NCBI GenBank assembly: GCA_026214975.1
Contig: CM047809.1
Coordinates: 25,704,241-25,768,240 of the forward strand
DNA: 64,000 nucleotides
Direction: 5' to 3'
Source: Gentiana macrophylla
Taxonomy: Eukaryota; Streptophyta; Magnoliopsida; Gentianales; Gentianaceae
How positions within the stretch are numbered: position 1 is the stretch's first letter; each line of letters starts with the position of its first letter. Of this stretch, positions 9,103 through 51,843 are shown piece by piece. Both the position numbers and the translations under genes were made by a program. A model generated the notes under the pieces. It was not told the origin of the DNA. It was given only the letters and a program-made list of their open reading frames with translations, and made no database searches.

Positions 9103-10375
9103 TGTTGAATCCTCGTATGTAGGAGGTCTTGAAAAATGATGTGATCAAAATGCTCGAGATGGGTATCATTTATGCTATCAGTGACAGTGAGTGGGTCAGC
9201 CCGACACAGGTTGTACCGAAGAAAGGAGGAATGACGGTGCAGCCCAATGAATATAATGAGCTTGTTCCGACTCGACTAGTCACCGGATACCGCGTTTGCA
9301 TAGACTACCGAAGGCTGAATGATGCTACACGTAAGGATCCCTTCCCTTTACCTTTTATTGAACAAATGTTGGAACGTTTGAGTGGACATGCTTTTTATTG
9401 TTTTCTAGATGGATTTAGTGGTTATTATCAGATTCTTATCGACCTTAAAGACCAAGAAAAGACAAATTTTACGTGTCTGTATGGCACTTTTGCATACACT
9501 CGGATGCCGTTTGGGTTATGTAACGCCCAACGACCTTCCAGCATTGCATGACTGCCGTATTTTCTGATATGATTGAGAATTTTTTAGAAGTGCTTATGGA
9601 TGATTTCAGTGTCTTTGGTGATTCTTTCTATGATTGTTTAGATAATCTTGATAAAGTGTTGCAATGTTGTGAGGAAACTAATCTCGTGTTAAATAGGGAG
9701 AATGTCACTTTATGGTAGAAGAGGGTATCATGTTAGGGCATAAGATATCGAGGAGAGGTATTGAGGTAGATCGAGCAAAAGTTGAGGCTATTGAACGATT
9801 GCCACCTCCCACGAACTTGAAAACGCTTAGAGGTTCCCTTGGACACGCAGGTTTTTATTGACGGTTTATACAGGATTTTTCGAAATGTGTTAAATCTCTT
9901 ACGCATTTACTTTCGAAAGATGTGCCCTTTGTGTTTGATGATTCTTGTTTAGATTAAACATTTATTAGTGATTGCCCCGATTTAGATAGCACCGGATTGG
10001 AGTCAGGAATTTGAAGTTATGTGTGACGCTAGTGATATGGAAATTAGGGTCGTATTGGGCTAGAAATGCGATAAACTGTTCAAGCCTATCTACTATGCAA
10101 GTCATACTTTGAATCCAGCTCAAATCAATTATGCAACCACTAAGAAGGAATTGCTAGTGATAGTTTACGCCTTTTATAAGTTTCGTTCATATTTGATTGG
10201 TTCGAAGGTTGTAGTTCACACTGATCATGCGGCACTGAAATATCTTCTGAATAAGAAAGATGCGAAACCTCGACTCTTGAGATGGGTACATTTACTCTAA
10301 GAGTTTGACGTTGTAATTAAAGACCCTAAGGGCTATGAGAATGTGGTTGCGGACCACCTTAGTCGCTTACAGTTG
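9103..10375 (+). pseudogene. Athila reverse transcriptase and RNase H (degenerate)
   Basis: The RT starts abruptly at the LARD-A boundary with the motif MLEMGIIYAISDSEWVSPTQ, followed by RLVTGYRVCIDYRRLN and YCFLDGFSGYYQI. After a frameshift near 9530 the catalytic box appears as VLMDDFSVFG. Further frameshifts follow near 9710, and stop codons lie near 9860 and 9955. RNase H is recognisable from CDAS (about 10024) through KKELL and [12 protein letters not shown] to NVVADHLSRL, so its acidic residues are largely retained. A functional enzyme would make and degrade the RNA/DNA hybrid in a cytoplasmic particle; this copy cannot. Confidence 0.9.
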
Positions 10376-11777
10376 ACCCCTGATGTTATTGCACGAGAGA
10401 GAGTGATAAATGACGAGTTTCTAGATGAAAAGTTGTTTGCTATACATACGGTTATTCTAGAAATGAAAGAGAGCCCTCTGATTCACGGAAAGTTTGGTAA
10501 CCCGTGGTACGCTTCTTTTGTGAATTATCTTGCGTGTGAGTATTTAGAACCCGACTTGACTTACCAACAACGTAAGAAATTTTTCAGTGATCTAAAGTAT
10601 TACCACTGGGATGACCCGTATCTATTTCATAGATTTTCTGACGGTATAATTCGTAGATGTGCTCATGATGGCGAGATACCGAGCATTTTTTCGTTTTGTC
10701 ACGACAAGGAGACCGGTGGCCATTATTCCGGAAACCGAACAGCTTTGAAGGTTCTCCAGAGTGGTTTTTATTTGCCCTCGATCTTTCATGATTCACACAA
10801 GTATGTAAGTATATGTGATGCTTGTCAAAGATCGGGGAGAAACTCGAGACATTTTTAAATGCCTATGCAACCGATCCTCGAGTGTGAGATTTTCGATGTT
10901 TGGGGAATCGAGTTTATGGGACCGTTCCCGTCCTCCAACAATAACAAGTACATTCTTGTAGCGGTGGATTACGTCTCGGTCGAAGCAATGGCTTCTCCTA
11001 CTAATGGCCGTAATGTAGTCATCCGTTTCTTGAAAAAGCATATTTTCACGAGGTTCGGAGTTCCTCAATCGATGATTAGTGACAATGGTAGTCACTTTCA
11101 AAATCAGCTTTTCAGCAAACTTCTGACCAAATACGGAGTTTGACACAAGTTGGGAACCTCGTATCATCCCCAAACGAGGGGGCAGGTCGAGGTTTCGAAT
11201 AGAGGGATTAAACGATTGGGCTAAAAAGCTCGATGATGCAGTTTGGGCCCATCGGACTGCTATTAAGACCCCGATAGGGATGTTCTCATACCAGTTGGTG
11301 TTCGGTAAGACCTGTCACTTACCAGTCGAGTTGGAACAATGATCATATTGGCCGACTCGGTTCCTAAATTTCGACGAGACATCCGTAGGTGAGAAATTGT
11401 TGTCACAGTTGGCTGAACTCGATGAGTTCCAATTGCAATCTTACGAGTGTGCTCGTAATTATAAAGAAAAGACTAAGATTCTCCACCATGCTAAGATCAA
11501 AAAGTGTGAGTTTAAAGATGGAGACGACGTCTTACTTTATAACACTCGTTTACACTTTTTTCAGGGTAAGTTGAAGTCTCGGTGGATGGGGCCGTATAGA
11601 GTTTCTAAAGTGTTTCTGTCTGGAGCTGTTGAAGTGACTCATGAAACCAAGGGGACGTTTTTGACAAACGCCCTTCGGTTGAAAATATATGAGAAATCTT
11701 ACTTCGACACTAATCTCGTATTCGTGAACTTGGAAGATCCTCCTCCATGTCCTGAGGATTGTGAGTCATGTATATGA
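10376..11777 (+). pseudogene. Athila integrase (degenerate)
   Basis: The HHCC zinc finger is visible around GGHYSGNRTA and CDACQRSG (10710-10840). The catalytic core follows: the first acidic position reads WGIEFMGPF, Glu where WGIDFMGPF is usual; the second is ISDNGSHF; the third is in GQVEVSNR. Stops occur at about 10858 and 11143. The segment around 11200-11230 has lost about 20 codons. The C-terminal part, from LAELDEFQLQSYE to RWMGPYRVSKVF, is open and ends at 11777. It would insert cDNA into chromosomes; it is inactive here. Confidence 0.9.
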
Positions 11778-11912: not shown

Positions 11913-12162
11913 GTCGATCTAACAACGTTAAACAACAGTGCTTTGTGGGGAAATTTGTTAGAATACCACTACTTTGAACAACTATTTGTGAGAATACCTT
12001 TTATTTGTTAGAATACCACTCCCCCATTTCTGCAAGACACATTTTTTACATACCTATGGAGTGCTATTCTAACAAATAAATGGTATTCTCACAAATAGTG
12101 GTTCAAAGTAGTGGTATTCTAACAAAATTCCCCGCTTTTCCGCTTTGTGGGAGGCAACCCAT
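11913..12162 (+). promoter_or_regulatory. Post-integrase hairpin module, split by a MITE
   Basis: The piece GTCGATCTAACAAC (11913-11926) and the near-palindrome GTGGGAGGCAACCCAT (12147-12162) match the module at 42914-42961 of the other Athila element in the same order. The MITE at 11947-12133 separates the two halves. The module lies between integrase and ORF3 in both families. Its role is unknown; an RNA structure controlling ORF3 expression is one inference. Confidence 0.6.
11947..12133. mobile_element. MITE with long terminal inverted repeats
   Basis: The left arm begins GGGGAAATTTGTTAGAATAC and the right arm is its reverse complement with a few mismatches. Arms are about 65-70 bp around a short centre that includes CATTTCTGCAAGACAC. 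Imperfect copies of GCTTTGT flank it on both sides, fitting a 7-9 bp target duplication as made by Mutator-like or hAT transposases (family uncertain). It has no coding capacity. Confidence 0.85.
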
Positions 12163-12169
12163 GTTTAAA

Positions 12170-12271
12170 TTGATTTTTAGGAGTCTCGGGAAAGTCTCGT
12201 AGGTCGAAACACCCCGAAAATTGAGTTTTAGGAGTCTTGGGGAAGTCTCGTAGGTCGAAACACCCCGAAAA
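12170..12271 (+). repeat. 51-bp tandem duplication
   Basis: Two adjacent 51-bp units (12170-12220 and 12221-12271) share GGTCGAAACACCCCGAAAA and differ at only a few positions. They lie in the Athila spacer between integrase and ORF3. Confidence 0.9.
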
Positions 12272-12305: not shown

Positions 12306-12420
12306 CAGGCGCACGCCTAAAGGTCATTTTTGGTGCCAAACATGCACATCGTGTTTTGCCAATTTCAGCTCGTATTTTGCTTGATAGGCACACGCCTAGA
12401 AAATGCCAGGCACACGCCTA
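12306..12420 (+). promoter_or_regulatory. Palindrome array upstream of Athila ORF3
   Basis: Three 14-bp palindromes occur: CAGGCGCACGCCTA (12306-12319), TAGGCACACGCCTA (12385-12398) and CAGGCACACGCCTA (12407-12420). They are copies of the motif amplified upstream of the TATA box in this element's own LTR (16603-16817). The array occupies the same place as the TGGACG-type array at 42554-42760 in the other Athila family. Confidence 0.75.
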
Positions 12421-12881: not shown

Positions 12882-14398
12882 ATGACTGGTGGGAATACGA
12901 AAAGAAAGACCCCTTATGTGCCCGGTAGTCGAAAGGGTAGTGGTAGTGGTGGTGGTCGTAAGAGAGGTGGTGGTGGCAGCCGTGGTGGGACTGCACCATC
13001 TGGTGAGAATGAACCTGTTAGAATGTGGTTGAGTTGCCTGAAGAAGAGCCCACGGGAGAACAACGAGCCGACCCCCCTAGGCAAGAACGTAACCGGGATA
13101 CTTTGAACCATTTCATAGATGAGGCCCTGGACCACTTCAATGATAAATTTAGGTCCAAAACCGTGCTCATAGAGATAGAGTTGCTTAGGGCTGATGTGAG
13201 TGAAATATTCTGGACAAACGTACAAGAACGAGGATGGGGAAATCTTACTACGGTTAAGCCCGAGCCAATCAATCTGTCCATGGTTAGGGAATTTTTCTCG
13301 AATGCTAAAACCATAGGGGCAGCTGCTAATTTCATCCTGTTTAGAGGTCAGAGACTTAATATTAGCCGTGAGGGAATAGCTAACCATTTCTGACTCCCGA
13401 GTGTACCGTTTGATGAAGAGTACACCCAAGTATTTGCTAGGATTTCCCAACAACAACCCCCGGTTGATGTCCTTGAAATGGAAAAATGAGCCATCTGTCC
13501 CAACTGCGAGTGGATCCCAAGTAACACCAATAATAGACATGATATTAATACGTCCCAGTGGGATCCACCCGAGAAACTAGTCGTCAAGTTTGTCACTTAC
13601 CGTCTTTATCCTACTTCTCAGTCCACCACGATAAGCTCCAAACTTCTTAAGATTGTCTACGCCATCCTTCACAATATCCCGGTTGACGCAGCAAAGATCA
13701 TTAGGGATAAGCTCACCTCATATATCGGGAAGCAAACTCCTAATATGGTTTTTCCATGTATGATCACGGATATGGCCATTACTTCAGGTTTAGACAACAT
13801 GCCTGGTGATTTTTTAATTTATAGAAAATTCCCACCTATTGTCGAGAAGTCCAGTCTCGCGAGACATGGAGTGCAACACCAACCTCAACCACCTCGCAAA
13901 CCAACTAGGGTTGCCCGCTCTAATCAAGAACAAGTTACCTTTGCCGCCCTAGGAGCTCAATGAGATTGGTTCTATGACAACCATCTAGCAATGTTGCCAT
14001 TACGAACAATCAGTGACGAGGTTGCCAAACGTCATGACATCGCTACATCGCACCTCCCAAATGTTTCTCAAAGGCCTTATCAATATCCACCCTTTGTCCA
14101 AGAATTTGTCCCGGACTTTCCACATCAGATCTTTGTGGAATTTCAGCAACCTTTTGAGGGTGGGGGACCTAACCTCGGAGGTGAGTCGAGTGGGGCTGCG
14201 TTTGGAGATGTTGGTGGTTCGAGTGGAGGTGGTGTTTGAGGTGTTGGTCCGAGTGGAGGTGGTTTTGATGATTTCGGTTTGGCGCCTACACTAGGGACGG
14301 ATTTAAAGATGGATCCCGAGGATTATTTGTACGATAACATCAGCACTCAACAAGGACAGGGGGCGGAGCAACGTGATTTAGAGACAGATGAGGAGTAA
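12882..14398 (+). pseudogene. Athila ORF3 (plant-transposon-domain protein), degenerate
   Basis: The start ATG at 12882 opens a Gly/Arg/Lys-rich N-terminus (MTGGNTKRKTPYVPGSRKG). A frameshift near 13025 leads into a helical segment (DTLNHFIDEALDHFNDKFRS) and a domain with VREFFSNAKT and ILFRGQRLNISREGIANHF. This resembles the VREFYAN...VRGVEVPFTPEVIN domain of the other Athila ORF3. Stops interrupt at 13391 and 13960. The tail is Gly/Pro-rich with an acidic end, stopping at 14398. This position is the env-like slot of Athila elements; the family's function is not established. I saw no signal peptide or convincing membrane segment in what remains. Confidence 0.75.
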
Positions 14399-16286: not shown

Positions 16287-17833
16287 TGATGAGAGTCAAC
16301 TCAACCCTATTTTCCTACGGATTTTATACCCGTGACGACTCACTTTGTACAATTCCGGGAGTTTTTTGCTATGTTTTGGTGCATTTTACACCGTCTTGCT
16401 ATTTACAAGGTTTGGATATACAATCCGGGAATCTCGGTTTTTTCGGTGTTTTGAATTCATTCTCTGTCACCCTAGTGTCCCATAGGGGTTACTTTTGGTA
16501 TGTGTTTTGATGCTTTTCAGGAACTAGGTGTTCGAGAATGCCCGGGAAACGTGATACGGAGCTTCGGGACGCTTGGTTGCTCACTTTGGGGATAAAACAT
16601 GCTAGCCGCACGCCTAGAATTTACCATGCACACGCCTGAGGGTCTGAAATGGGGCAAAGTTTCAGTCAATGTTTCTTAAATGCTAGGTGCACGTAGCAAA
16701 TGCCAGGCGCACGCCTACCTTGAAAATGCCAGGCGTACGCCTACCTAGTGCTCTGCAGGCTGAGATATTTTGGATATTTTCTAGGCGTGCGCATGCCTTT
16801 TCCTAGGCACACGCCTAGCAGTCAACCTTCCCTAACACTATAAAGGCCTAAATATTTGTGGAGGTTGGATATATATCATCTTCTACAACATTTCCTGGCG
16901 ATTTTCAATCCCCAAAAATCACCATAGATACATTTTAAGTTTTTATAACATCTTTTTTTGTAATAAGCACTTGGATCAATCTGGGATTTTATATATTTGA
17001 AGTTAGTTTTCTCGATTTCGATCTTTCTTCCGGTTTTTCTCTACATAGGTATTTCAAAACATGATCTTTTGTTTTTATGTTCTTGTCCTATGATGAAATC
17101 TAGTGTTATTGTAGTTAATATGAGTAGCTAATCGCATTATAGCCGAGTTATGCGATAATCATCGAAACCGGATCCTAGCTTGTTCATGTGTTGTTCTTGA
17201 TGTTTGATTTGATTATTCTTGATGTGTTTATAGTCCTAGAACTTATACTTAACCATGTTTGTTGAATTGGCCATTTGATAATCGTATTACACTTATCTTC
17301 TTTACATATGTATTTTGCTAGAGGGTACGGGAACCGGGGTTCTTGGATCACCCTGTAAACCGACTGCGTTGCTTAGATTCGGTTTCGTGTGTGAGGTTTA
17401 TATCGACTCGTCGAGCGTTTCATTGACCATAGACCGTGTTGGGTTAGTTAAATCCGGTCAGCAGACTTTTGAACCTGACATAGGAGGGTAGATTATTGAA
17501 GTAGGAAACGACACCCTACGTATGACATCGAGACGTTTAGGTGAATCAAGAATACCTCCGGACTTAGCTAGGGTTTGGTAAGTAGTTGATTGGATCATAG
17601 CTCGACTATCGCTTTTAATCGTTTAAAATCTCGTTTTAATTCTGTCATCGAAGAAATAGCACGTTGTAGTATAATAACCTTTCCAAAAATCGTGTTGATC
17701 TGAACTAGAGATGACGCTAGCTTTGGTACTTAACTAGATTCCCTGTGGGATTATGACCTTGCTCACTAGTTTTATACTACAACCGACTCGGTACTCTGTC
17801 GGTCAAAGTTGGTATACTATAAAACAGCCATCA
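16287..17833 (+). repeat. 3' LTR of the + strand Athila element
   Basis: It starts TGATG right after the polypurine tract and ends CATCA, giving 1547 bp, close to the 1551-1553 bp of the other Athila LTRs. A TATA box (CTATAAAG) is at 16838-16845. The palindrome array lies upstream of it. There is no partner LTR in the window, so boundaries rest on the termini, the tract and the resumption of family C sequence at 17834. Confidence 0.82.
16603..16845 (+). promoter_or_regulatory. Palindrome array and TATA box of the Athila LTR
   Basis: Seven copies of a 14-bp palindrome (16603, 16625, 16684, 16704, 16730, 16782, 16804) centre on TAGGCG-NN-CGCCTA. The best are CAGGCGTACGCCTA and TAGGCACACGCCTA. 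The last copy ends about 20 bp before CTATAAAG at 16838. The placement suggests binding sites for a dimeric regulator of LTR transcription, or RNA hairpins if transcribed (inference). Confidence 0.75.
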
Positions 17834-37383: not shown

Positions 37384-38936
37384 TGTCACGGATTTTATTA
37401 ACACAAAACAAACAAGTAATAATCCGGTTAACGTCAAGTATAAGGATCGTAGTAATAGTGGTTAATGCCGGGTCGATCTTACGGGGAACTGGCGATTGCT
37501 AACCTTAGTTTTTGTTTAACTAACTAACCTATGTCACGATTACTAAACTAAACAGATATGAAACAGTAAATAATTCACAAGAAAGATAGCAATAACGTAA
37601 ACTGGACAGAAGATCGAGATCTAAAGCCAGGAAAAGTACGGGTTGCGAACTATTAAACTTAAACTAATTATGAAATATAAGTAACTAAACTAGGCAATTC
37701 AAGTTTCACGGGATTAAATTCAGATTTTAACGAACAAACGAGCGATTGATCCACCTATCCTAACAAGTATCAATTCATATCTCGATTATATTGCGTTTTC
37801 TAACCAAGTTGTGGTTTTACCTTGTCTAAAGCATGAACCCTAATCTCTTAGGTGATTCACTTATTAATCTATATCTTTCGATCTAAGATTAACGATTTTA
37901 CTAATCAAAGGTGTGAACTTTAACCTAGCAATTTGACCTATTAACTCTCGTTATGATAGATTAAACAAACATTCCTTATCATGATGATCTAAGGTTTATA
38001 GAGATTTTCATCAACACAAAACAATCATAACATGCAAGTCTTTCGATACAATTGCAATTAAACAATATAAACAATGATAAAGGAAACAACTTTAGATAAA
38101 ACTCACAATATGATCGCAGAAACGGAATCAAAACGTGTCGGATGGCTTCACAATGCTCGTTTGATAAGGCTTTAGCCTCTCAACATTACTTGATCAACTC
38201 GAAAAGCTTGAGAAAAGTACATAAATTTGAAGGTGTTTATCTAGAAATTAAAAGCATAAAAACTGGATGAAAACTAAAGTAAATCGCAGCTAAGCCGCCC
38301 CTAGGTTTAGGGTTTGAGTAATGTATTCTTATTGTGGAGAAAATACGCTGCCTTATATAGAATTCGAAGGCGGTTCAGCTAAGTCGGCTACCGGACGCCC
38401 GTCTGGAAAGGGTGAACGCCCGTCCACTCTTCAATAAAACTTCAAATCGGGCCGAGTCATGACCAGACGCCCGTCCATCCAGCGTCCACTCCAGCGTCCA
38501 AACTTCCTGAATCAAAGATGTCATCCTGGACGCTCGTTCACTTCATCAGACGCCCGTCCACTGGACGGAGATTCTGGACGCCAGTCCAACATGATCGAAT
38601 TCTGATCTCTTTGATCTTTATCTCTTTTCTTCTTGTCAATTCCTTCATTATCTCTTTTATCATCAATTAGCTCTAACTTAATCGACTTTTGATCATCTTT
38701 TGAGCCTCAACCATGTATCTATAACACATGAAAACATCGCAAAATGTAATAATGTCCAAATAATCGAAAATTCACAATTAAAACACATAAATCAACCTAT
38801 TTTGCGATTAACTCATTTAAAATGTCATTTACTCAATAAATCCATTAAACACTCGTTTCTTATACAAATTAATATAAATATGAAGGAAATTATCATAAAA
38901 TATAGCGTTATAAATCGTATAAATTCACCCTTAACA
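37384..38936 (-). repeat. 3' LTR of the - strand Athila element
   Basis: A 1553-bp LTR, TGTCACGG to TTAACA on the + strand, nearly identical to 50293-51843. The TATA box is at 38353-38360 (minus strand CTATATAA). Palindromes at 38392-38588 lie upstream of it. Confidence 0.95.
38392..38588 (-). promoter_or_regulatory. Palindrome array upstream of the LTR TATA box
   Basis: Full 14-bp palindromes start at 38392, 38413, 38464, 38527, 38547 and 38575, for example CAGACGCCCGTCCA and TGGACGCCAGTCCA, with half sites (AGCGTCCA, TGGACG) between. The array ends about 30 bp upstream of the TATA box. The same array is in the other LTR at about 51300-51496. Confidence 0.78.
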
Positions 38937-38974
38937 ACTCCCCCACACTTAGCTTTTGCTCGTCCCGAGCAAAA
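38937..38974 (-). promoter_or_regulatory. 3' polypurine tract with GGGAC-loop hairpin
   Basis: In element orientation a perfect 8-bp stem TTTTGCTC/GAGCAAAA with loop GGGAC (38954-38974) is followed by GCTAAGTGTGGGGGAGT, which abuts the 3' LTR. The tract primes plus-strand synthesis; the hairpin is conserved in weaker form at 16245-16269. Confidence 0.82.
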
Positions 38975-40437
38975 CAAGACAGAATAAAGGCTCGAGAAAA
39001 GATAGACATCTAGACATATATAACACATATTCAATAAATCAGAAGTTCACCAGTGTGTGTGTGCAAAGCCATAGAAAACTTCCACTGAATCCAAACTTGA
39101 GAAACTCAAAGCAAAACTAGCTAATACCCCCTCGTAGACTAGCGATAAATGACACTTATAAGATGCACCCTACAAACGTGGCATATCCCGAAAAGGATGA
39201 TAGAACATATCTAGGGCCTTTCTGGAATACTCAGAGGATAATCCCTACAGCATATCTGTCAGTTTTTACTGGGGATAAGATAGACGATAACTTAGTCTCT
39301 TATTCATTTCATAACAATTCTTATATGAGTTGATTCAACTATTTCACTTTTAAACACACATCAGAATGAGCTCTTGCCCTGTCATAGCAGAATAGGATAT
39401 TCGTGATATACCCTACCTTACTCCAATCATAAGGCAGCTTTTTCTGATTGTCGTGAGCTTTTGGTCATCATAGTGGTATAGGACATACGTGGTATACCCT
39501 ATCGCACTCAAATCATCGACTAGCTTTCGACACACCCAAGTAATTCATTTAATTTAACTTTTCATTTGACATTAAGTTACGTGTTACTTATCACATTCAA
39601 ACCTTAGATATTCACAGTATAACATACTTTGGATCTAAATACAAACTATCATAAATCTCAAGATATATACGTAGCACTAAGCACAAGACTTATAAGATAA
39701 TCAGAAATCACTTGTCGAAAAGGGGTATAACTGTATAAACTAGCTCATCATTTACTATGGCTCGTGAAAAAAATAGATCTCAGGTGAAACAACTAACTCA
39801 TCAAACATATGATATACAGCTTAAATGACTATAAAAATAACGAACATAGATCTGAATTGCCTATTCGGGACAAAACAAAAACAAAAGTGTCGAAAAATTT
39901 CGAAAATTTTAGCTCATTTTGCATAGAAACATTACGAATTAAGCAAATGTATAGATACATAACGAATCATTCCCCTCCCCCACACTTAAAAATCAACATG
40001 TCCTCATGTTGTGCAGAACGAAAGAAAAAGGAAAAGACTTAGCTGATTTCACCCGATACATGACTCGTCGGTCAGGCCGGAGCCTACATATTGACACTGG
40101 AAACTCGTAACCATACAATGTAACTCGATAAAACCGCTAAAAATATACCTGCACGACTTGACAAACACGGAACCATCTCGGGGAAAACGGGGAATTATAC
40201 CAGAATGAAAAGAAATAATAAAAAACGAGTATTACCAAAAGATAAAGCATTGAATACATTCACCAGTCGAAAGAAAATATGAAATAAAAGTTCTGATGCC
40301 TTATGGCTTACATGATCCATCGGAAAGAATAACCAGTAGCTAAATACGAAACACAATGAATCACGTAATCAAAAGTAGCAAAAATATACAATCACAGTAT
40401 CTAGGGCAAATCAAAATCGAAAAATGGACAAATGAAA
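38975..40437 (-). other. 3' non-coding region of the - strand Athila element
   Basis: About 1.5 kb without recognised genes. It contains an internal polypurine tract with a GAGGAC-loop hairpin at 39972-40011 and repeated motifs (ATTCGTGATATACCCTACC near 39400 and ACGTGGTATACCCTATCG near 39490) that form a diverged duplication. Confidence 0.65.
39972..40011 (-). promoter_or_regulatory. Internal polypurine tract with GAGGAC-loop hairpin
   Basis: In element orientation the stem CAACAT/ATGTTG closes the loop GAGGAC (39994-40011), followed by ATTTTTAAGTGTGGGGGAGG. It matches 14937-14976 in spacing, loop and purine tract, but with a different, compensated stem. Confidence 0.75.
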
Positions 40438-41936
40438 TCATGACTGCCCCGGAGCCGGAGGATCATCAGCCGGAGGATCGGAAGAGGGTCCAGGTGGTGG
40501 AGCCGTAGTCCTATCCACTGAGTCAGGCTGCTCCTTATCAGACGACTCAGACTCGTGAAGAACATCTGCGATGGCCTGCTCAATCTCGTCAGAATAATGG
40601 TAATCAATGATGCTCGGACTGAAGATCCTGTCATCCCTTGGCCGTCGGCCTTCACTGATACACTGCAGAATCGTCAAAATGTTATTCTGAGAAGTCCGAA
40701 TGTCCTCCATCTAGTTTCGAACACTGTTGGCCATACTCAACCTCATCCGGACTGAGGGAGATAAAGTAGGAAGTGAGGATGCTGGAGGCGGTGCTGATGA
40801 CGTACCAGGCTCACGCGGTGCCCCTGACTCTGACTGACCCGAAGGCTTACCCTTCTCTCTCTGTATAGGCCTCGGGTTCTTTGGTCTGTGATCGGCTCCA
40901 TACTCAGGCACACCGGCATCAATACAGTGTGGATCAGGTGAGGGATAATCAGGCAACGAGTATAGATCTTCTGATTAATAGCCACCTCATCGTACAACGC
41001 CTGTCTCACATCCACATTCAGGCCAAACGTCAACGCATAAAGCATGCCTAGGTCACCAATATGAAAGTGTGTCAGGTTGTTCTTAGGCAACAACCGACTA
41101 TGAATAAATCGACACTGGACTTTCCAATCCTCCGTCCAGGTCGTGGTAACCAACTCTTTCCGGTCTCCTCCCGGTCTTAACGTCCAAGCCACATCCGGGC
41201 AAACTCTCAACCTTAACTCCTCCAAAGGATCCTGCCCCAAACTCTGTCTATGTACAATCTCCTCATTATAATCTCGACCCTCAAAAGCTGCCAACCCATA
41301 CTTCGCATTGATCACCTCCGGTGTAAACGGAACTTCTACCCCTCGAACCACAACTACCTTCGTCTCCAAGTCGGTTTCTGAACAATTGGCATAAAATTCC
41401 CGAACCAAGGAACCATTGACCGGGGTAGTCGGGATCGTCATCAAGGCATCCCATTTCCGGTCTCTTAGCAACTTGACAAACCCTGGATCTACCTTAGCTT
41501 CCAACGTAGCCCTTTCTATCAACATCGTTCTCGAGAAATAATGCTTAGTATAGGCGTCGTGGGCCCTAGGATTCACGAATCTACGAGGCAGAGGCATAGG
41601 AGGTACGGTCTTGGCTTTCTTTCTAGGTTGGGTAGCCCTAGTTTCAACCGGTTCCTCTTCCTGAGAAGCATCTACAATTTCCTCAGCTCTAGATGATCCT
41701 CCACCTCGGGGAACCCTATGCATCCGTGCCAATGGTACATCCTCATCCGTCTCAGAGTCCGAGGTTGGGTCATCTCTTAAGGTTGCCCTAGTTTGGGTGG
41801 CTCTAGGGGGTTGCTCCCGAATACTAACACCCCGGTTAGGATCAACTAAGGTAGGATCAATCTCTTTACGCTTCTTCCCGGCCTCCCGGGCCACTTCCTT
41901 ACCATGCCTCTTCACCACTGCCTTCTTATGAACCAT
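40438..41936 (-). pseudogene. Athila ORF3 (plant-transposon-domain protein), nearly intact
   Basis: The ATG at 41936 opens a Lys/Arg-rich N-terminus (MVHKKAVVKRHGKEVAREAG), then a low-complexity linker. A folded domain of about 200 residues follows, with RRFVNPRAHDAYTKHYFSR, SLVREFYANCSETD, VVVRGVEVPFTPEVINAKYG and NNLTHFHIGDLGMLYALTFG. This is the plant-transposon domain common in Athila ORF3. A frameshift near 40950 moves the Pro-rich C-terminus (PDYPSPDPHCIDAG) to another frame, and a stop lies at about 40708. The end is acidic and Pro-rich (DEIEQAIADVLHESESSDKE). Function is not established. It has its own upstream palindromes and TATA-like box at 42538-42760. Confidence 0.8.
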
Positions 41937-42113
41937 TATCCAAGCTTAGACTAAACCAAACAATCCCAATTCGCACAAAAGATACCCGTTTAACATCCAA
42001 AGCGGGATTTCAAAACAACCACAACCACAACCATAATCATCACCAAATAACCCATTCATCACCCATCACAACACCATATCACCATAACAGAGCATAAAGA
42101 AACACAAAACCAG

Positions 42114-42150
<37 letters not shown>

Positions 42151-42537
42151 GAATTAAGGTAATATTCAAGTGAACGAGCCGACCCAAAGATCGAACTTGC
42201 AAAAACGTGAATAAAAACTAGAAAAGCTGTTACTAACTTACCAAGTAGGGTGAGTAGATGTTGATCGAGATGAAAGGGAGTCCAAACAACACAAATATGG
42301 CCTCCAAAATTGAATTTTTTTCCAAAAAGTCGGACTGCAATGGAGCTTGATTCTCCTAAAATATGGCGTGTTGGGGAATTTGGTTATGAAAATCGAAAAG
42401 AGGGTGCCAAGAGCGGTCTATAGCACTTGGAATCGCCCAAAAAGGTTTAGAATTGAAGATTTTAGGGCAAAAGGAGGGAAAAATTCGGTTTATCGCGTTT
42501 GAAAATCTGAAAAATGAATGTTCATCGAAGGAGGGGG
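41937..42537 (-). other. Leader of ORF3
   Basis: Six hundred bases between the TATA-like box and the ORF3 start. It includes an A run of about 35 bases on the + strand (about 42114-42149), which reads as a T run in the element and could be part of a splice acceptor region (inference). Confidence 0.5.
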
Positions 42538-42760
42538 TATATATAGACAGATGTTGGACACTCGTCCAACTCAGTGGACGGGCGTCCACTGGGAAACTAG
42601 ATGAACTGGACGGGCGTCCTGATTACCAGACGCTCGTCCAAACATTCAAATCACATAAAGGATTGGAGGGAATAAAGCGGACGGGCGTCCAGGCTTAGTG
42701 GACGTTCGTCCACTAATTGGTCATGGCGGACGGGCGTCCAGACATCCGGACGGCCGTCCA
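42538..42760 (-). promoter_or_regulatory. Palindrome array and TATA-like box upstream of ORF3
   Basis: Eight palindromes start at 42554, 42574, 42607, 42627, 42678, 42698, 42727 and 42747. Several are perfect, for example GTGGACGGGCGTCCAC, GTGGACGTTCGTCCAC and TTGGACACTCGTCCAA. In element orientation the array is followed at once by CTATATATA (42538-42546). This copies the layout of the LTR promoter and suggests a separate ORF3 transcript (inference). Confidence 0.75.
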
Positions 42761-42913
42761 AGGTGGAAGAATGCAAAAATCATAAAAATTTATACAATTT
42801 AAATTCAAATTCGCACTTTCTTATTAAACTTAATCAAAAATTCAAAAATACAACTCTAAATCGACGAAGTACATAAAATTACTAGAAAACAAAATAAAAA
42901 CAGATAGAAAACA

Positions 42914-42961
42914 GTGGGTTGCCTCCCACTCAGCGCTTTTGTTTTACGTCGTTTGCTCGAC
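42914..42961 (-). promoter_or_regulatory. Intercistronic hairpin module, copy 2
   Basis: In element orientation it reads GTCGAGCAAACGAC, then AAAACAAAAGCGC, then the near-palindrome GTGGGAGGCAACCCAC. It starts about 17 nt after the stop of the 137-residue ORF. A diverged copy follows integrase at 43494-43538. Confidence 0.7.
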
Positions 42962-42978
42962 GAAACATCCTAAGAACG

Positions 42979-43550: not shown

Positions 43551-45590
43551 TCAGCCTGGATCAGGCCATTTGACTTTTCTGCCAGCCACTACCTCGTGTA
43601 AGCTCTGATTAGTAGTGTGGCTGCAGAAACAGCATCTCACACATGGGATGAAATCTTTAACAGTTTTCCAAATACGCGTAAACTTCCCCATGACTGACCT
43701 CTTCCTCTTCTGATTCTCCTGATGACGTTTCAGTTGACGCTCCCTCCAATACTCTTCCATATCCCAACTACCCGCTAGAACTTCTTCAGATCGACCACTA
43801 CCGTCATCCTCTGAAAACAGGTCGGGTGAAAACTCGTCAAATTCTTCGACTTCCGTAACACCACACCCGAGGATATCGAGGAAACGGACACTCAAAGGTT
43901 TCTCTTTAGGCTCACCAATATAGTGCTTGCACCTTTGACCATTCACTCGAAACGGTTGGTCACCATAACCTCGTAGTTCTAGAACGCCTCCAGGAATAAT
44001 TTGGAGAATTTCGAAGGGACCGGACCAACGTGTCCTCAACTTTCCAGGAAACAGATGTAACCTAGAATTGTATAGAAGAACTTGTTCTCCGACTTGGAAT
44101 TCTCTTTTCTTAATCTTAGCATCGTGGAGGAGTTTCATCTTATCTTTACTAATCCTGGCACTTTCATAGGCTTGGAGTCTGAATTCGTCCAATTCATGCA
44201 ACTGCTGCAGTCGATGTTTTCCACAAGATTGGGAATCAAAGTTCAGAAACTTGGTAGCCCAATAGGCTCTATGCTCTAACTCGACTGGCAGATGACATGG
44301 CTTTCCATAGACCATTTGATATGGAGATGTACCTATAGGGGTTTTATAGGCAGTTCTGTATGCCCATAGTACATCATCCAACTTCAAACTCCAGTCCTTT
44401 CTATGACTGTTTACCGTTTTCTCCAGGATTTTCTTAATGCTTTGGTTGCTTCTTTCAACCTGACCACTAGTCATCGGATGGTATGGTGTGCCAGTTCTGT
44501 GACGAACACCATACTTTTCAAGCACTTTCTCCAGAGGTCGGTTGCAGAAATGCGTCCCTTCATCACTGATCAAGGCACGTGGACATCAAAACCGTACAAA
44601 GATGTTCTTCTTTAAGAATTTCATGACCGTCTTATAATCATTGTGAGGAGTGGCTTGAGCCTCCACCCATTTAGACACGTAGTCTACGCAGACTAAGATG
44701 TATTTATTACCGCAAGATGATGGGAATGGTCCCATAAAATCGATACCCCATACATCAAAGACCTCGCATTCTAGGATGGGTTTCAAAGGCATGTCAAAAC
44801 GCCTCGTCAGAGTACCGGTTCGTTGGCATCTATCACAAGCTTTACAGAAAGCTTCTGTGTCCTTAAAGATCGTAGGCCAATAGAAACCGGATTGGAAGAT
44901 CTTAGCAACGGTTTTCCACGGACCAAAGTGACCTCCAGTGGGTCCACTGTGGCATTGCTCAATAATATCACGTTGCTCAGATTCGGGAACACATCTTCTA
45001 AGCAGACCATCTTTACAGATCTTAAAAAGATAAGGTTCATCCCAAACGAAAGATTTCAAATCAGAGAAGAACTTTTTCTTCTCCTGATAAGACATTTCCG
45101 GATCGAGATATCGGGCAAGAAGGTAATTTACAATGGAAGAATACCATGGAACATCAGGAGGACAACCGTCTATTAGCATAATGTTCTCTAGAGGAAAGTA
45201 AATATCTATATCATCTGGACCATCCTTTTCCTCACTTAACATTCTAGAAACATGATCAGCTACTACGTTTTCACTTCCCTTTTTGTCCTTAATTTGAACG
45301 TCAAACCCTTGTAGGGTCAGTATCCAACGCAGTAGGCGTGGTTTGGCCTCTTTCTTAGTCATCGATATACATAGCGGCGTGATCGATCCACACACGATCA
45401 CTTGAGCTCCTAACAAGTAACTACGAAACTTGTCCATAGCAAAGACTACGGCCAGTAGTTCCTTTTCAGTAGTATTATAGTTAACTTGAGAGGGGTTCAA
45501 TGTGTGACTGGCGTAATAGATAGGCTGGAATTTCCCTTTGATCTTTTGTCCTAGAACAGCACCAACCGCATAGTTCGATGCGTCGCACAT
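43551..45590 (-). pseudogene. Athila RNase H and integrase
   Basis: RNase H runs from [14 protein letters not shown] through [20 protein letters not shown]. The block holding the usual TDHAA reads in a shifted frame (45361-45402), so the catalytic Asp is lost although the ORF stays open. Integrase follows with [10 protein letters not shown] and CKACDRCQ (zinc finger), [17 protein letters not shown] and SGQVERSNQ, so all three catalytic acids are present. One TGA stop at about 44585 (a Gly codon in relatives) splits it. The C-terminus has [10 protein letters not shown] and a long charged tail ([20 protein letters not shown]) ending at 43551. Confidence 0.92.
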
Positions 45591-45679
45591 AAGCTCAAAA
45601 GGTATATTCCGGTCGAAGCGATAAGAATTGAAGCAGATATTAAACGATCCTTAAGCTCCTCAAACGCTTGCTTGCAGCT
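45591..45679 (-). other. Frameshifted joint between RT and RNase H
   Basis: About 90 bp that still resemble the connection domain in shifted frames. They separate two otherwise open pieces of pol and explain why the polyprotein is broken here. Confidence 0.6.
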
Positions 45680-46867
45680 CTAATCAAAATTGAACTCAAC
45701 GTCTTCCTTTAGTAAAGTAGACAGGGGCTTGGCTATCTTGGAGAAATCTTGAATGAATCTTCTGTAGAAACCGACATGTCCAAGAAAGCTTCTAACTTCA
45801 CGCACATTCTTAGGATAGCTCATCTTCTCGATAGCTTCTACTTTTGCCCTGTCAACTTCTATACCTTTGGCGGAGATTTTGTGGCCCAGAACTATTCCCT
45901 CATCTACCATAAAATGGCATTTTTCCCAATTGAGTACTAAGTTCTTTTCCACACATCTGGATAACACTTGATCAAGATTGTCAAGGCAATCATCAAAAGA
46001 CTGACCAAAAACCGAAACATCGTCCATAAAAATCTCCATACACTTTTCTACGAGCCCGTCAAAGATAGCCAGCATACATCTCTGAAATGTAGCTGGGGCA
46101 TTGCAGAGACCAAATGGCATTCGCCTGTAAGCGAATGTACCATATGGGCAGGTAAAAGTGGTCTTTTCTTGGTCAGCTGGATCTATGGGTATTTGGAAGT
46201 ATCCTGAATAGCCATCTAGGAAACAGTAGAATGCGTGTCCCGCCAGACGCTCAAGCATCTAATCAATGAATGGAAGGGGGAAGTGATCTTTCATGGTTAC
46301 CTCATTGAGCTTTCTATAATCGATGCAGACTCTGTAACCAGTGACAAGTCTCAATGCTATTTCCTCTCCCTTCTCATTTTTCTCAATCGTAATTCCACCT
46401 TTCTTGGGAACTACCTGAGTCGGGGAAACCCATTCACTATCAGCGATGGCATAGATAATTCCCATGTCCAGAAGTTTGAAAATTTCTTTCTTAACTACTT
46501 CTTGCATATGAGGGTTGAGCCTCCTCTGGGGCTGTCGTACACATTTCGCACCCTCATTTGTCTTGATCTTATGCATACAGATGTCAGGAGATATCCCTCT
46601 GATATCTCCTACTTGCCAACCAAAAGCTTTTTCATTTCGTTTCAAGACGTTGATCAATTTCATCTCTTCTAGTCGAGACAGCTTGGCGGATATGATTAAC
46701 GGAAGCCTGTCGCCTTCTCTTAAAAACACATACTTTAGATGTTTGGGCAACGGCTTCAGAACCAAATCAGTAGGGGGGTCTTCCAAACTTGACTTAAGAT
46801 CTCCACTTTTTAACTCAACATCACTGAGCTTACTCAGTGGTCCCACTGCCTTGACTTCTTCTCTCAA
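45680..46867 (-). pseudogene. Athila reverse transcriptase
   Basis: The frame shows LKYVFLREGDRLPLIISAKL, EMKLINVLKRNEKAFGWQVG, ISPDICMHKI, LLDMGIIYAIADSEWVSPTQ and GYRVCIDYRKLNEVT. A TAG stop at about 46260 replaces the Gln of FIDQMLERL. The rest is open: YCFLDGYSGYFQIPIDPADQ, RRMPFGLCNAPATFQRCM, then the catalytic box EIFMDDVSVFG and FLGHVGFYRRFIQDFS. Except for that stop, the polymerase core is intact. Confidence 0.93.
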
Positions 46868-46883
46868 CAGTTCTTCCTCAAAA

Positions 46884-47510
46884 TCAGCTGCTTAATTGAT
46901 CTAGATTAACCACACCATGAGTATTTAGATTATCAACCAATTGCTCATATTCAGCTTCTACAACCATGACTTGCTTATCCATATAATCGGTGAAATCATC
47001 TGTCATATAATCAATGGAGAAGCCGGTTGGAGGGCCAGAGGGTACTTGAATGGACTTTAAGACATTGTAACTCACCTCTTGATCACCAACTCGGATAGTC
47101 ACTTGCCCACCATCGCAATCGATGAGGGCTCTAGCTGTAGATAAGAAAGGTCTTCCAAGAATCAGGGGGACGTTTTCATATTTCTCCATATCTAAAACAT
47201 ACCAATCGACTGGAAAGGTAAATCTGTCAATCTGAACCAAAACGTCTTTCAGGATCCCTGAAGCTTTCTTAGAAGATCTATCAACGAATTGTAGACTCAT
47301 AGTAGTGGGTTCTAGAAGGCTTTGTAAACCGAAATGTTGCATCTGAGACATTGGCATAAGACTTATAGAGGCACCTAGATCACACAAAGAATTAGGGAAG
47401 ACTAGACCTCCCATTAATCTTGTAAGTACGAACTTGCCAGGGTCACCTCTTTTAATTGGTAAGTTTTCATAATTAATCATGGAGCAATCCTCACCAATTT
47501 GCCTTTCCAT
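46884..47510 (-). pseudogene. Athila aspartic protease
   Basis: The open frame holds the retropepsin active site as NSLCDLGASISLMP, the flap region and the ILGRPFLSTARALID motif. It is part of the gag-pol polyprotein, preceded by a gag frame broken near 47520 and followed by RT. The domain itself has no stop, so the break is outside it. Confidence 0.9.
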
Positions 47511-49523
47511 GCCTGCTAATTTCTTTTCAAAGACACAACATCCTTAATGAATTTTGTATACTTAGGCATTTCAACCAAGACTTCGATAATGGAAGATTTA
47601 CTCGAGTATTTTTCAAAAGGTTCAAGACCTTTCCATACTTTTGTCTTCAATCAAGGAATGTTGCTCTTTCTCGGTGGAAATGGAAGCTTCTTAAGGTCAC
47701 TCTCAGAAAAGACTTTCTTTGAGGATGCACTTACAGCTTTGTCTTCCAGATCCTTCCAACGAACAGCTTTTTCAGATTTTTTTGTAGTCAGGGGATCAGC
47801 CTCCTGACTTTCACTCGCTTTTTCAGTTCTCAAGGGATCAGCCACTTGAGGGTCTCCAACTTCTTCACCTCTCAGGGGTTCAGCCACCTGAGTCTTTTCT
47901 TGCAGTTGAGGGGAGTGTAGGTGCTCGGCTTCCCCTCATGCCTTATCAATGGCAGGAGGGGCTAGTGGTTTCCCTGATGGGAAGGACCACTAACTTGAGT
48001 TCCGCTTCTAAGGTTCATCGCACTGGCCTCTTCTTTACCGTATTGAATTGATGGCACGTGGTTAGTACATGGGCCTTTGTTCAAGTCAGCTTGAGCAACT
48101 TGACCACCCTTTGGATTCTTCTCGGTGAAACTGGGCAGCTGCCCTGGGGGTCTAGAAGCTAACTGTTCAGCCAGTTGCCTAATTTGTCTCTCAAGATTCT
48201 TCATTGATCTACTTTGCTCCACCAACTTAGCTTCAAGATTGTTAGACTGGGAGGGGCTTTGAGAGTTTTGAAAATTTTGAGCATAGGGCTGGTTGGGCCG
48301 ACTTTGGACTGCAGGATTTGAATTGGAAGGCCAATTCTGATTTAACCTTTGAGTAGGATTGGAAAAAATTCGAGTTCGGGTTCTGATTAAAACCAGGGTT
48401 TCTATTGAAATTTTGATTCGAATTAAAACTCGAATTAGGATTAAAATTTGAAGATGGATTAAACCCTTGGTTTTGAAAATTGTTCTGGCCAGAGAACTGA
48501 TTGAACCTTTGATTGTTCTGGCCATAGAATGCATTCACTTCAGCATTATGTCCGTTCATAGGACAGAATCTAGAAGTGTGCCCCACCTCGTCACAATTCT
48601 GACATGTGATTTGATTGTACTGTCCATAATCATGAACAGCATTCACTTGATAAGGTGCAGGGGGATTAAATTGACATTGGCCATTCATATGGGCAAATCG
48701 GCAAAGAAGCGCATGTCTGAACTCGAGGTTACTGCGGAAAAGAAGAAGTTTGATTTGCCGGATTTGAAACTTGAGGTGTTGCCATCTGCTTCTGCAGCAT
48801 GGCGATCAAACTTTGCAAATTGACTTCCTCAACCTTGGGAGGAGGAGGTGCTTGGATTGCTTGATAAGAGGGGGCATAATTATACTTTGCAATGTCCTCA
48901 AACAATGCCCATCCCTCTTCAGGTGTTTTCTTCAGAAATGCCCCACCAGAAGAACTATTGACCATGCCTTTGGTAAGCTCGGTCAATCCACTAAAGAAGG
49001 TGTTGACTTGCTTTTCCAAAGGGCGAGGCCATGGTGGGGACACTTTCTAAGAAGAGACTTGAATCTCTTCCAAAGATTCGAAGAAGGATTCATTCTCTTT
49101 CTGATAGAAAGTGAATATTTCATTTAAACACTGGGCTGTCTTTGAAGGTGGAAAATATTGACTCAAGAACTCCTTTTCGAGTTCTTCCCAGGTAGTGATA
49201 GATTCAGAGGGGAGAGAGGTGTACCACTCTTTAGCCTCTCCTTTCAAAGAAAATAGAAAAAGTTTTAGCTTGATAGCATCCTCACTTACTCCTTGGATGT
49301 GTGTAGTACCGCATATCTCTAAGAACGTATGTAAGTGGGTATGCGGATTCTCTGATTGATAGCCATGAAAAATTGATGCGTGCTGCATCATCTGGATAAG
49401 TCCTGGCTTTAGCTCAAAGGTTTGTGCAGTAATGGCTGGAATAACAATAGCCGGGTTGACTTTGACTTCGCCTGGCATGGCGTAGTCTACCAACGTACGT
49501 CTATTGTTAGCGGCCATTATCAC
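47511..49523 (-). pseudogene. Athila gag
   Basis: The ATG at 49523 begins MIMAANNRRTLVDYAMPGEV. The Retrotrans_gag-type domain follows (GYQSENPHTHLHTFLEICGT, LKGEAKEWYTSLPSESITTW, FLSQYFPPSKTAQCLNEIFT). Stops or shifts occur at about 49045 and 48730. An intact zinc knuckle, CQNCDEVGHTSRFC (CX2CX4HX4C), is at about 48610-48570. An Asn-rich stretch (48520-48380) and a predicted coiled segment (MKNLERQIRQLAEQL, 48205-48160) follow. Gag would form the particle and bind RNA. Confidence 0.9.
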
Positions 49524-49797
49524 AAAATCAGTGATTTCCTTTGCTAGTTGATCTTCAAGATCTTGCTCGGCTCTGTCGCGTAACCGCGAAACGGAAAATC
49601 CGCTGTTTGGCGGACTACGGTTCGCTCGGGTCGTGGGTGTATAATAACGGTCCTTTTGACTCGAGTTTGCATAAACCGGACCAAAAACAAGTGAAGCGAA
49701 GCCTAAAAACTAAGAAATTAAAAGCCTAAACTAAAATTAAAAACCTAAAGAAAAGAAAGGAAAGAAAAAGGAAACAAAATTATTGAAGAAAAGGGGC

Positions 49798-49997
49798 CAG
49801 ACGGACGTCCAAGGTTTGGGCGGGCGTCCGGTGAATTTGATCGACGGGCGCGTTTAGTGTTCCAAACGCTCGTCTGAAAGGCAGAATACTTGAACGGGCG
49901 TCCAAATCTTATGGACGCTCGTCTAAGTGAATAAAAACAGAACAGAATCGATAATTTTCCAGCGGACGGGCGTCCAAGATATTCAGACGCCCGTTTG
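49798..49997 (-). promoter_or_regulatory. Palindrome array in the 5' leader
   Basis: Eight palindromes of the same TGGACG-NN-CGTCCA type occur between the primer-binding site and gag, for example CAGACGGACGTCCA (49798), TGAACGGGCGTCCA, CGGACGGGCGTCCA and CAGACGCCCGTTTG. This array is in the RNA leader, unlike the LTR array, so its copies would be transcribed. Confidence 0.75.
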
Positions 49998-50269
49998 GTA
50001 GCGGGAAAACTAGAACAGAAGCAGAAATTTGCAGAAAAGAAAAGAAGGTAAGACAGAAAGACAGAAAAACAGAAAGAAAGACGATCCAATCTCAAAGGAA
50101 ACTACTAAGGGAAGGTCTTAAACCCTAACTAAACCCTAATTATCTACTTAGCAACTACCTAAAACAATTATCAACTAAAAATAGGAATTTAAAACGAAAT
50201 AAAAACAGGAAAAACAGAAACAAACAGAAAAAAAAAAACAAAAAACAAAAACTAGACAACCGTCCGGTT

Positions 50270-50286
50270 CCCCGGCAACGGCGCCA
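50270..50286 (-). other. Primer-binding site (tRNA-Asp) of the Athila element
   Basis: The minus strand reads TGGCGCCGTTGCCGGGG, complementary to the 3' end of plant tRNA-Asp. It lies six bases inside the 5' LTR. Confidence 0.92.
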
Positions 50287-50292: not shown

Positions 50293-51843
50293 TGTCACGG
50301 ATTTTATTAACACAAAACAAACAAGTAATAATCCGGTTAACCTCAAGTATAAGGATCGTAGTAATAGTGGTTAATGCCGGGTCGATCTTACGGGGACTGG
50401 CGATTGCTAACCCTAATTTTGTTTAACTAACTAACCTATGTCACGATTACTAAACTAAACAGATATGAAAACAGTAAATAATTCACAAGAAAGATAGCAA
50501 TAACGTAAAGCCGGATGGAAGATCGAGATCTAAAGCCGAAAAAAGTACGGGTTGCGAACTATTAAACTTAAACTAATTATGAAATAAAAGTAACTAAACT
50601 AGGCAATTCGAGTTTCACGGGATTAAATTCAGATTTTAACGAACAAACGAGCGATTGATCCACCTATCCTAACAAGTATCAATTCCTATCTCGATTATAT
50701 TGCGTTTTCTAACCAAGTTGTGGTTTTACCTTGTCTAAAGCATGAACCCTAATCTCTTAGGTGATTCACTTATTAATCTATATCTTTCGATCTAAGATTA
50801 ACGATTTTACTAATCAAAGGTGTGAACTTTAACCTAGCAATTTGACCTATTAACTCTCGTTATGATAGATTAAACAACCATTCCTTATCATGATGATCTA
50901 AGGTTTATAGAGATTTTCATCAACACAAAACAATCATAACATGCAAGTCTTTCGATACAATTGCAATTAAACAATATAAACAATGATAAAGGAAACAACT
51001 TTAGATAAAACTCACAATATAATCACAGAAACGGAATCAAAACGTGTCGGATGGCTTCACAATGCTCGTTTGATAAGGCTTTAGCCTCTCAACATTACTT
51101 GATCAACTCGAAAAGCTTGAGAAAAGTACATAAATTTGAAGGTGTTTATCTAGAAATTAAAAGCATAAAAACTGGATGAAAACTAAAGTAAATCGCAGCT
51201 AAGCCGCCCCTAGGTTTAGGGTTTGAGTAATGTATTCATATTGTGGAGAAAATACGCTGCCTTATATAGAATTCGAAGGCGGTTCAGCTAAGTCGGCTAC
51301 CGGACGCCCGTTTGGAAAGGGTGAACGCCCGTCCACTCTTCAATAAAACTTCGAATCGGGCCGAGTCATGACCAGACGCCCGTCCATGCAACGTCCACTC
51401 CAGCGTCCAAACTTCGTGAATCAAAGATCATCCTAGACGCTCGTTCACTTCATCAGACGCCCGTCCACTGGACGGAGATTCTGGACGCCAGTCCAACATG
51501 ATCGAATTCTGATCTCTTTGATCTTTATCTCTTTTCTTCTTGTCAATTCCTTCATTATCTCTTTTATCATCAATTAGCTCTAACTTAATCGACTTTTGAT
51601 CATCTTTTGAGCCTCAACCATGTATCTATAACACATGAAAACATCGCAAAATGTAATAATGTCCAAATAATCGAAAAATCACAATTAAAACACATAAATC
51701 AACCTATTTTGCGATTAACTCATTTAAAATGTCATTTACTCAATAAATCCATTAAACACTCGATTCTTATACAAATTAATATAAATATGAAGGAAATTAT
51801 CATAAAATATAGCGTTATAAATCGTATAAATTCACCCTTAACA
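50293..51843 (-). repeat. 5' LTR of the - strand Athila element
   Basis: A 1551-bp LTR nearly identical to 37384-38936. The TATA box is at 51262-51269 and palindromes are at about 51300-51496. It is followed by the target duplication ATCAT at 51844-51848. Confidence 0.95.

Follow-up and report, generated by a model that had tools for sequence, protein, structure and literature searches.

Two Athila-like elements in the window

The window analysed here, a stretch of 64,000 nt, holds two Athila-like Ty3/gypsy elements, E1 on the plus strand and E2 on the minus strand (Table 1). E1 is 5′-truncated in the window and keeps pol remnants, remnants of a PF20167 gene and its 3′ LTR. E2 is flanked at both outer ends by a 5-bp ATCAT repeat, as read from the sequence, and its Pfam domains run along the minus strand in the order gag-protease-RT-RNase H-integrase (the protease match is weak, E 2.2e-4). 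Its primer-binding site, TGGCGCCGTTGCCGGGGA, is presumably of the tRNA-Asp type, a type that we take to be linked to Athila. The domain order, the primer-binding site and a sense PF20167 gene after pol, as in sunflower Athila, are the Athila-like features of E2. Comparison of the E1 and E2 LTRs by blastn gave zero matches at E 0.05.

Two smaller features were seen in E1. A 51-bp tandem repeat of 2.1 copies (12167-12271) lies immediately upstream of the internal palindrome array, and a 220-codon open frame without a Pfam match (12917-13576, minus strand) runs antisense to the broken PF20167 gene.

Table 1. Coordinates of the features of E1 and E2 in the window
Feature	Position	Strand	Details
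E1 pol remnants	9105..11690	+	tblastn matches to the RT, RNase H and integrase of E2; 2 of 3 pieces carry Pfam RVT_1 and Integrase_H2C2
E1 internal array	12306..12420	+	3 sites (12306, 12385, 12407) downstream of pol, ahead of accessory gene; motif scan
E1 accessory gene remnants, PF20167, frames broken	13025..13765	+	Pfam matches in two pieces (E 2e-6 and 2.2e-10), neither reaching curated cut-off; tblastn 25% to E2 protein
E1 LTR array	16603..16817	+	6 sites YAGGCG-NN-CGCCTR (16603, 16625, 16704, 16730, 16782, 16804), ≤2 mismatches to YAGGCGNNCGCCTR
E1 LTR TATA box CTATAAAG	16838..16845	+	20 bp past last E1 LTR site
E2 whole element	37384-51843	-	both LTRs present
E2 3′ LTR	37384..38936	-	98.07% identical to 5′ LTR; exact ends read from sequence
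E2 3′ LTR TATA TATATAAGG	38359-38351	-	32 bp past array
E2 3′ LTR array	38392..38588	-	6 sites YRGACG-NN-CGTCYR; motif scan
E2 accessory ORF, 397 aa, PF20167 (Transposase_32)	40743..41936	-	Pfam E 5.1e-23; after pol, sense
TATATATA, putative internal promoter of E2	42538..42545	-	9 bp past last internal site
E2 internal array	42555..42760	-	8 sites, 2 perfect palindromes, between pol and PF20167 gene; motif scan
E2 gag-pol region, several frames	43554..49709	-	Pfam: gag, protease, RT, RNase H, integrase
E2 leader array	49798..49997	-	7 sites, primer-binding site to gag frame; motif scan
E2 primer-binding site TGGCGCCGTTGCCGGGGA	50269..50286	-	adjoins 5′ LTR
E2 5′ LTR	50293..51843	-	98.07% identical to 3′ LTR
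E2 5′ LTR TATA TATATAAGG	51268-51260	-	32 bp past array
E2 5′ LTR array	51301..51495	-	same 6 sites as 3′ LTR; motif scan

Six arrays of one palindromic site

The palindrome array that a preliminary description reported in the E1 LTR is genuine and is one of six in the window. Arrays lie in the E1 LTR, in the interior of E1, in both E2 LTRs, in the interior of E2 and in the E2 leader, and their sites share the general fit YRGRCG-NN-CGYCYR. The preliminary description counted seven palindromes ending about 20 bp before the TATA box; the cluster and its distance from CTATAAAG stand, but it comprises six sites at ≤2 mismatches. Perfect palindromes of the TAGGCG type do not occur in E1, where no site has all six arm pairs matched. 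The related palindrome noted at the equivalent place in the second Athila family was found again, upstream of the TATA box in both E2 LTRs. The LTR arrays were recognized in that description; the internal arrays of both families, the E2 leader array and the pairing of sites 19-22 bp apart had been overlooked.

Motif density was compared with that of dinucleotide shuffles. At ≤1 mismatch, YRGRCGNNCGYCYR occurs five times in the E1 LTR array (shuffle mean 0.043), three times in the E1 internal array (0.034), six times in each E2 LTR array and eight times each in the E2 internal and leader arrays. In each of the six regions, none of 1000 shuffles reached the observed count (shuffle means 0.017-0.045). 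The same pattern had 0 matches in six other segments of 8953, 10387, 8101, 12151, 6156 and 2670 bases; the array regions and these segments, to which the test applies, make up part of the window rather than the whole. Both the motif pattern and the spacing class used below were defined after inspection of the data, and both families come from one window. The motif is fitted to the data, yet the pattern originally proposed gives the same picture: at ≤2 mismatches it has 39 matches in the window, 32 of them inside the six arrays, and the seven outside compare with a shuffle mean of 7.46.

A motif-free count, which accepted any 6+2+6 palindrome in which 5 or more of the 6 arm pairs match and used 2000 shuffles, found seven palindromes in the E1 LTR stretch against a shuffle mean of 1.31 (four of the seven are the motif) and eight in the E2 internal array; no shuffle reached either number. 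The other arrays were moderately above shuffles, with three palindromes in the E1 internal array (49/2000 shuffles reaching this), five in the E2 leader (9/2000), four in the E2 3′ LTR (27/2000) and three in the E2 5′ LTR (138/2000). At a strict cluster threshold (4 copies, GC-rich arms), three of the arrays were the only clusters in the window, and 30 shuffles produced none. The arrays in the E2 LTRs and in the interior of E1 stay below this threshold. At four looser settings, non-array regions accounted for 7/12, 1/6, 4/7 and 6/9 of the listed regions. Apart from two AT runs of 7 copies, these clusters held 3-4 copies, and one lay inside an 89-bp tandem repeat; as they are mostly this small, only GC-rich, many-copy clusters are special.

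Anatomy of the sites and the difference between families

The half-site is YAGGCG in E1 and YRGACG in E2, inverted around a 2-bp centre. A profile of 21 E2 sites (42 half-sites, the 5′ LTR copy omitted) gave 0.91-2.00 bits per position in the arms, 0.34 for the base directly inside, 0.23 for the base directly outside and 0.02-0.12 for the next seven. The idea that the two-base centre is free while the arms are kept fails in E1: the centre is CA in seven of nine LTR and internal sites (TA and TG occur once each), and the left arm varies beside a right arm that is CGCCTA in 7/7 tabulated sites (two weaker sites omitted).

In E2 the commonest half-sites are TGGACG (19 of 42), CAGACG (7) and CGGACG (6), and the inner CG is intact in 40/42. 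The first two positions read TG in 25 half-sites, CA in nine, CG in six, and TA and AG in one each; T/C at position 1 and G/A at position 2 are associated (Fisher p 0.00012 across 41 half-sites, which are not independent). This spectrum is what the decay of methylated CpG would give, the 34 half-sites that start with TG or CA being possibly derived from CG. The older E2 half-site may therefore have been CGGACG, which would lie near the CGG-CCG core of Sirevirus motifs. Half-sites starting with CG number 0/18 in E1.

Between the families, half-sites differ at essentially one position, the fourth, where G stands in 17/18 half-sites of E1 and A in 41/42 of those in E2. The switch affects the two arms alike and extends to every array, whether in an LTR, in the interior or in the leader. 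Linked change between families comes down essentially to this position because position 2 is already polymorphic within E2.

Arm covariation, folding and CpG content

Arm positions 2 and 4 had been proposed to change together with their partners. Within families they do not. The E1 arms (seven sites, two weaker ones omitted) show eight one-sided deviations and 0 compensated ones, and the 21 E2 sites show 24 one-sided and five pair-kept deviations, a paired-cell count matched in 1342/5000 arm permutations. What survives of the proposal is the fixed between-family difference at position 4. The lack of within-family covariation, together with a single change between families, favours two half-sites read by the same type of subunit and disfavours selection for base pairing.

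RNA folding was computed for three of the six arrays. The E1 LTR array (z -3.45) and the E2 internal array (z -7.60) each folded better than 200/200 shuffles, and the E2 3′ LTR array was unremarkable (z -1.24), with 22/200 shuffles as good. A hairpin or cruciform as the main function was rejected on the lack of within-family compensation and on this last fold. The sites were originally read as either dimer-bound or cruciform-forming; the sharp edges of the E2 motif, the independent half-sites, the spacing of about two turns and the both-arm switch speak for the dimer.

The observed/expected CpG ratio is 0.80 and 0.89 in the E1 arrays versus 0.79 in the window. In E2 it is 1.63 in the leader array, 1.12 in the 3′ LTR array and 1.11 in the internal array, and 1.20 in the tested rest of the 3′ LTR. 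A reading of the arrays as CpG islands was rejected for want of an excess in E1.

Spacing and origin of the arrays

Sites are often paired about two helical turns apart. Neighbour spacings of 19-22 bp make up 12/25 (9/18 in E2 and 3/7 in E1, the 5′ LTR copy omitted); random placement in the same spans gives a mean of 3.34 such spacings and reaches 12 in 2/100000 runs, or in 12/100000 runs when the best of any 4-bp spacing window is taken. Spacings of 51-52 bp occur four times, a number reached in 70/100000 random runs. At a period of 10.5 bp the phase value is moderately high (0.46, reached in 737/100000 random runs), and spacings of 26, 28, 46 and 79 bp are off helical phase, so the helical rule is not obeyed by all sites.

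The flanks of the E2 sites are unrelated, with 6/420 comparisons reaching at least 7/10 versus ~1.1% at random. Those of the E1 sites are partly common (16/72 versus ~1.7%), and AAATGC precedes three of them, one internal and two in the LTR. Because these flanks are shared between LTR and internal copies, the E1 arrays arose partly by duplication of short pieces, and their sites are not independent. Simple tandem duplication is ruled out for E2 by its unrelated flanks and is retained as a contributor in E1. Despite LTRs that do not align, the arrays sit at matching places in the two elements.

TATA boxes and probable promoters beside the arrays

TATA boxes lie within 9-32 bp after 3/4 arrays at promoter positions (the E2 LTRs counted once), the chance of TATAWA within 40 bp being ~0.095 each. 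Downstream of the E1 internal array there is no good TATA box, only TTAAAAAA. The E2 leader array has no TATA box after it in the stretch examined and does not stand beside a promoter. For the PF20167 gene of E2, TATATATA suggests a putative internal promoter. Such a promoter is reasonable and has precedent, since the ENV ORF of Athila6A of Arabidopsis has a promoter inside the element with described transcription start sites (PMC4977677). The third gene could instead be expressed via a splice acceptor, a route predicted in print for Athila and mentioned in PMC2829016.

The PF20167 accessory protein

A PF20167 gene or its remnants follow the internal array in both elements. The identity between E1 and E2 is 25% for PF20167 and 52-83% for the pol pieces (tblastn). 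In a Pfam scan of the E2 accessory protein PF20167 is the only family at E ≤ 0.01, and the N-terminal third of this protein contains NLS-like basic runs by sequence reading; for a PF20167 protein of sunflower Athila, an NLS and a location in the nucleus are predicted (PMC11728184). A search with the E2 protein matched 0/5429 candidates at 1e-3, and one with a three-row PF20167 alignment 0/8000 at 1e-5; a search with a pol piece matched 7999/8000. As the protein search needs shared 5-residue words, the null result for PF20167 shows divergence, not absence. Two AlphaFold2 models of PF20167 proteins were unusable (mean pLDDT 33 and 39).

Search for other carriers

A pattern scan of IMG/VR returned 7 loci of high GC (61-73%), none plant-like; scans of the same database with pol yielded 6 and 11 matches to the pattern, and no relative was among them. 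A scan of genome contigs found three loci (L008, L009 and L010) of plant-like DNA inside bacterial assemblies. L008 and L009 share 99.6% identity across 9025 bp, so these loci amount to two families. Motif arrays and GC-rich clusters were absent from the stretches examined of both families, in which the LTRs are only partly covered; at one loose setting L008 had a single 3-copy AT-rich cluster, inside the gag-pol frame. PF20167 was likewise absent from the examined stretches of L008 and L010, with the same partial cover of the LTRs. In an RNase H-integrase tree, L008 and L010 fall outside the group of E1 and E2, in a different subclade (support 93/95 and 90/91). The group that holds E1 and E2 (support 85/89) is drawn open, and the tree places these two elements among plant relatives without lineage names. 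As the examined stretches of two related families contain no arrays, it would be premature to call the arrays a general feature of the lineage. Their presence may follow that of PF20167, judging from two elements against two.

Two observations concern the contigs themselves. L008 and L009 stand in CPCC-named assemblies (Solirubrobacter and Geminicoccus), and their near-identity as plant-like contigs points to probable contamination of reference genomes. In L010, a plant-like gypsy contig of a bacterial MAG, the accessory ORF after pol (1787-2347) matches PF05515 Viral_NABP, a viral nucleic-acid binding family, above the curated cut-off (E 3.5e-8).

Comparison with known systems

The literature covered on Athila palindromes, internal promoters and LTR motif arrays, most subscription papers lying outside its scope, held no report of such arrays. 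Sirevirus palindromes are reportedly taken up in a Genome Res follow-up of 2016, and Gomez-Orte 2013 is said to treat the accessory genes of Grande/Retand in the pol-LTR region. The closest parallel is in the Sireviruses, in which family-specific palindromes are repeated upstream of the LTR TATA and 5′ of env (Bousios 2010, PMC2829016); that study compared the motifs with classic Ty1/copia elements and called them Sirevirus-specific. E1 and E2 share with them the multi-copy palindromes before the LTR TATA, further copies 5′ of the third gene (in E1 without a clear TATA) and a consensus specific to the family. Sireviruses, however, are Ty1/copia elements, whereas E2 is Ty3/gypsy (RT/RNase H, then integrase) with a primer site that we take to be of the tRNA-Asp type. 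E1 and E2 also differ in their fixed 14-bp site with a 2-bp centre, in the 19-22 bp pairing and in the leader array of E2. Pairing and leader arrays are unmentioned for Sireviruses in the part of PMC2829016 drawn on, and the E1 arrays show no clear sign of the CpG islands that this paper describes. As far as our searches reach, the architecture is known in kind, as the Sirevirus layout, and new in lineage (Ty3/gypsy) and in detail.

Other systems share single features. Athila6A, itself an Athila element, has a promoter in its interior ahead of the third gene, and the consulted sections of PMC4977677 describe no motifs shared with the LTR. VANDAL elements carry dense, family-specific arrays of a short noncoding motif and encode the protein, VANC, that binds them (PMC5735166, PMC10398659); they are, however, DNA transposons, their 9-bp motif YAGTATTAY is non-palindromic by our own reading and lies in one orientation, binding is shown for VANC, and PF20167 is not known to be related to VANC. 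The Grande/Retand elements have an accessory gene downstream of pol that may have a promoter of its own and a DNA-binding product, but these genes are mostly antisense and carry TRP28, and tandem repeats rather than palindrome arrays are described in the portion of PMC11963269 used here.

Models for the function of the arrays

On balance, the arrays are probably clusters of paired dimer-binding sites that form a shared promoter code, through which both promoters of an element are regulated together. Each site, with two inverted half-sites around a 2-bp centre, would be bound by a dimeric, sequence-specific DNA-binding protein, and pairs 19-22 bp apart would place two dimers on the same face of the helix. 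One type of site would thus act as a common cis code: ahead of the genomic-RNA promoter in the LTR, ahead of the promoter for the PF20167 gene in the interior, and in E2 in the leader too. The bound protein would most likely activate transcription, or keep silencing marks off, at both promoters at once.

It is very improbable that the arrays are neutral, one short palindromic unit having multiplied inside each element through slippage or gene conversion. Common flanks in E1, such as the AAATGC before three sites, and the recurrence of spacings of 51-52 and 28 between arrays fit such a spread, but the E2 arms are kept amid unrelated flanks, arrays hold equivalent places in two families without LTR alignment, and clusters above the strict threshold are confined to three of the arrays, the E2 LTR and E1 internal arrays being weaker. 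We also think it improbable that the palindromes work as cruciforms or, in RNA, as hairpins, feeding small-RNA production or serving as silencing targets, as proposed for the LTR palindromes of maize Sireviruses. Sirevirus palindromes are hotspots of small-RNA mapping (PMC5311732), and the E1 LTR and E2 internal arrays outfold all their shuffles; good folding is automatic for repeated palindromes, however, and the E2 3′ LTR array shows little of it. The arms show no within-family compensation, no E1 site has perfect arms, and DCL3-RdDM target elements had no correlation with palindromes or inverted repeats (data not shown in PMC4977677).

If the arrays are dimer-binding clusters, the protein could come from the host or from the element. 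Capture of host transcription-factor sites as an enhancer, like the repeated boxes in Tnt1, with different paralogues of one factor family behind the family difference, is a serious possibility, although we lean slightly against it. We know of no plant factor with the half-site YRGRCG, which counts against a host factor, and a one-base switch in all arrays of one family would be easier with a private one. Sirevirus repeated motifs, on the other hand, correspond in PLACE mainly to stress-related factor sites, and 12/13 of those tabulated bear the CGG-CCG signature (PMC2829016); the CGGACG in 6/42 E2 half-sites is as expected of a common host factor. More doubtful is the proposal of an element-encoded factor, in which the PF20167 protein would recognize the palindromes at the LTR promoters and at the promoter of its own gene, in the manner of VANC for VANDAL transposons, for self-activation or sequence-specific anti-silencing, protein and sites diverging together. 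In E1 and E2 alike PF20167 comes after the internal array, it diverges more than pol by both identity and database matches, and the stretches examined of two relatives have neither arrays nor PF20167. Nuclear location is predicted in sunflower, VANC binds arrays of a short noncoding motif that differs between families (PMC5735166), and one sunflower Athila clade has a drop in LTR methylation in all contexts (PMC12844716). Against this stand the unusable models, from which no DNA-binding fold is demonstrable, a fast divergence equally expected of an env-like gene without such constraint, the broken E1 gene, and a correlation of two elements against two in which the array-less pair belongs to another subclade. 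An element-encoded factor may co-evolve with its sites. Rather unlikely, in our estimate, is the full circuit in which an Athila clade encodes its own regulator in PF20167, which would bind palindromes paired two helical turns apart at the promoter in the LTR, the internal promoter of its own gene and the leader, for positive feedback or anti-silencing, with a one-base specificity switch and family-private activation. Were PF20167 such a regulator, protein and half-site would co-evolve and each family would activate only itself.

Whichever protein would bind them, the paired spacing and the one-base family switch provide a concrete, cheap handle on the binding partner and may help to reveal what PF20167 accessory proteins do. 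That a Ty3/gypsy lineage has the Sirevirus layout suggests that env-class plant retroelements came to use palindromic promoter arrays by convergence or hold that use in common.

A common block past the end of pol

Although their LTRs do not align, E1 and E2 have in common a block, TGGGAGGCAACCCA, past the end of pol (12148-12161 on the plus strand and 42915-42902 on the minus strand), within a 27-bp match of 89%. A similar block, GACGTAAAAC...TTGGGAGGAAACCCATG, lies at 6127-6162 of L008, directly after the stop of its gag-pol frame.
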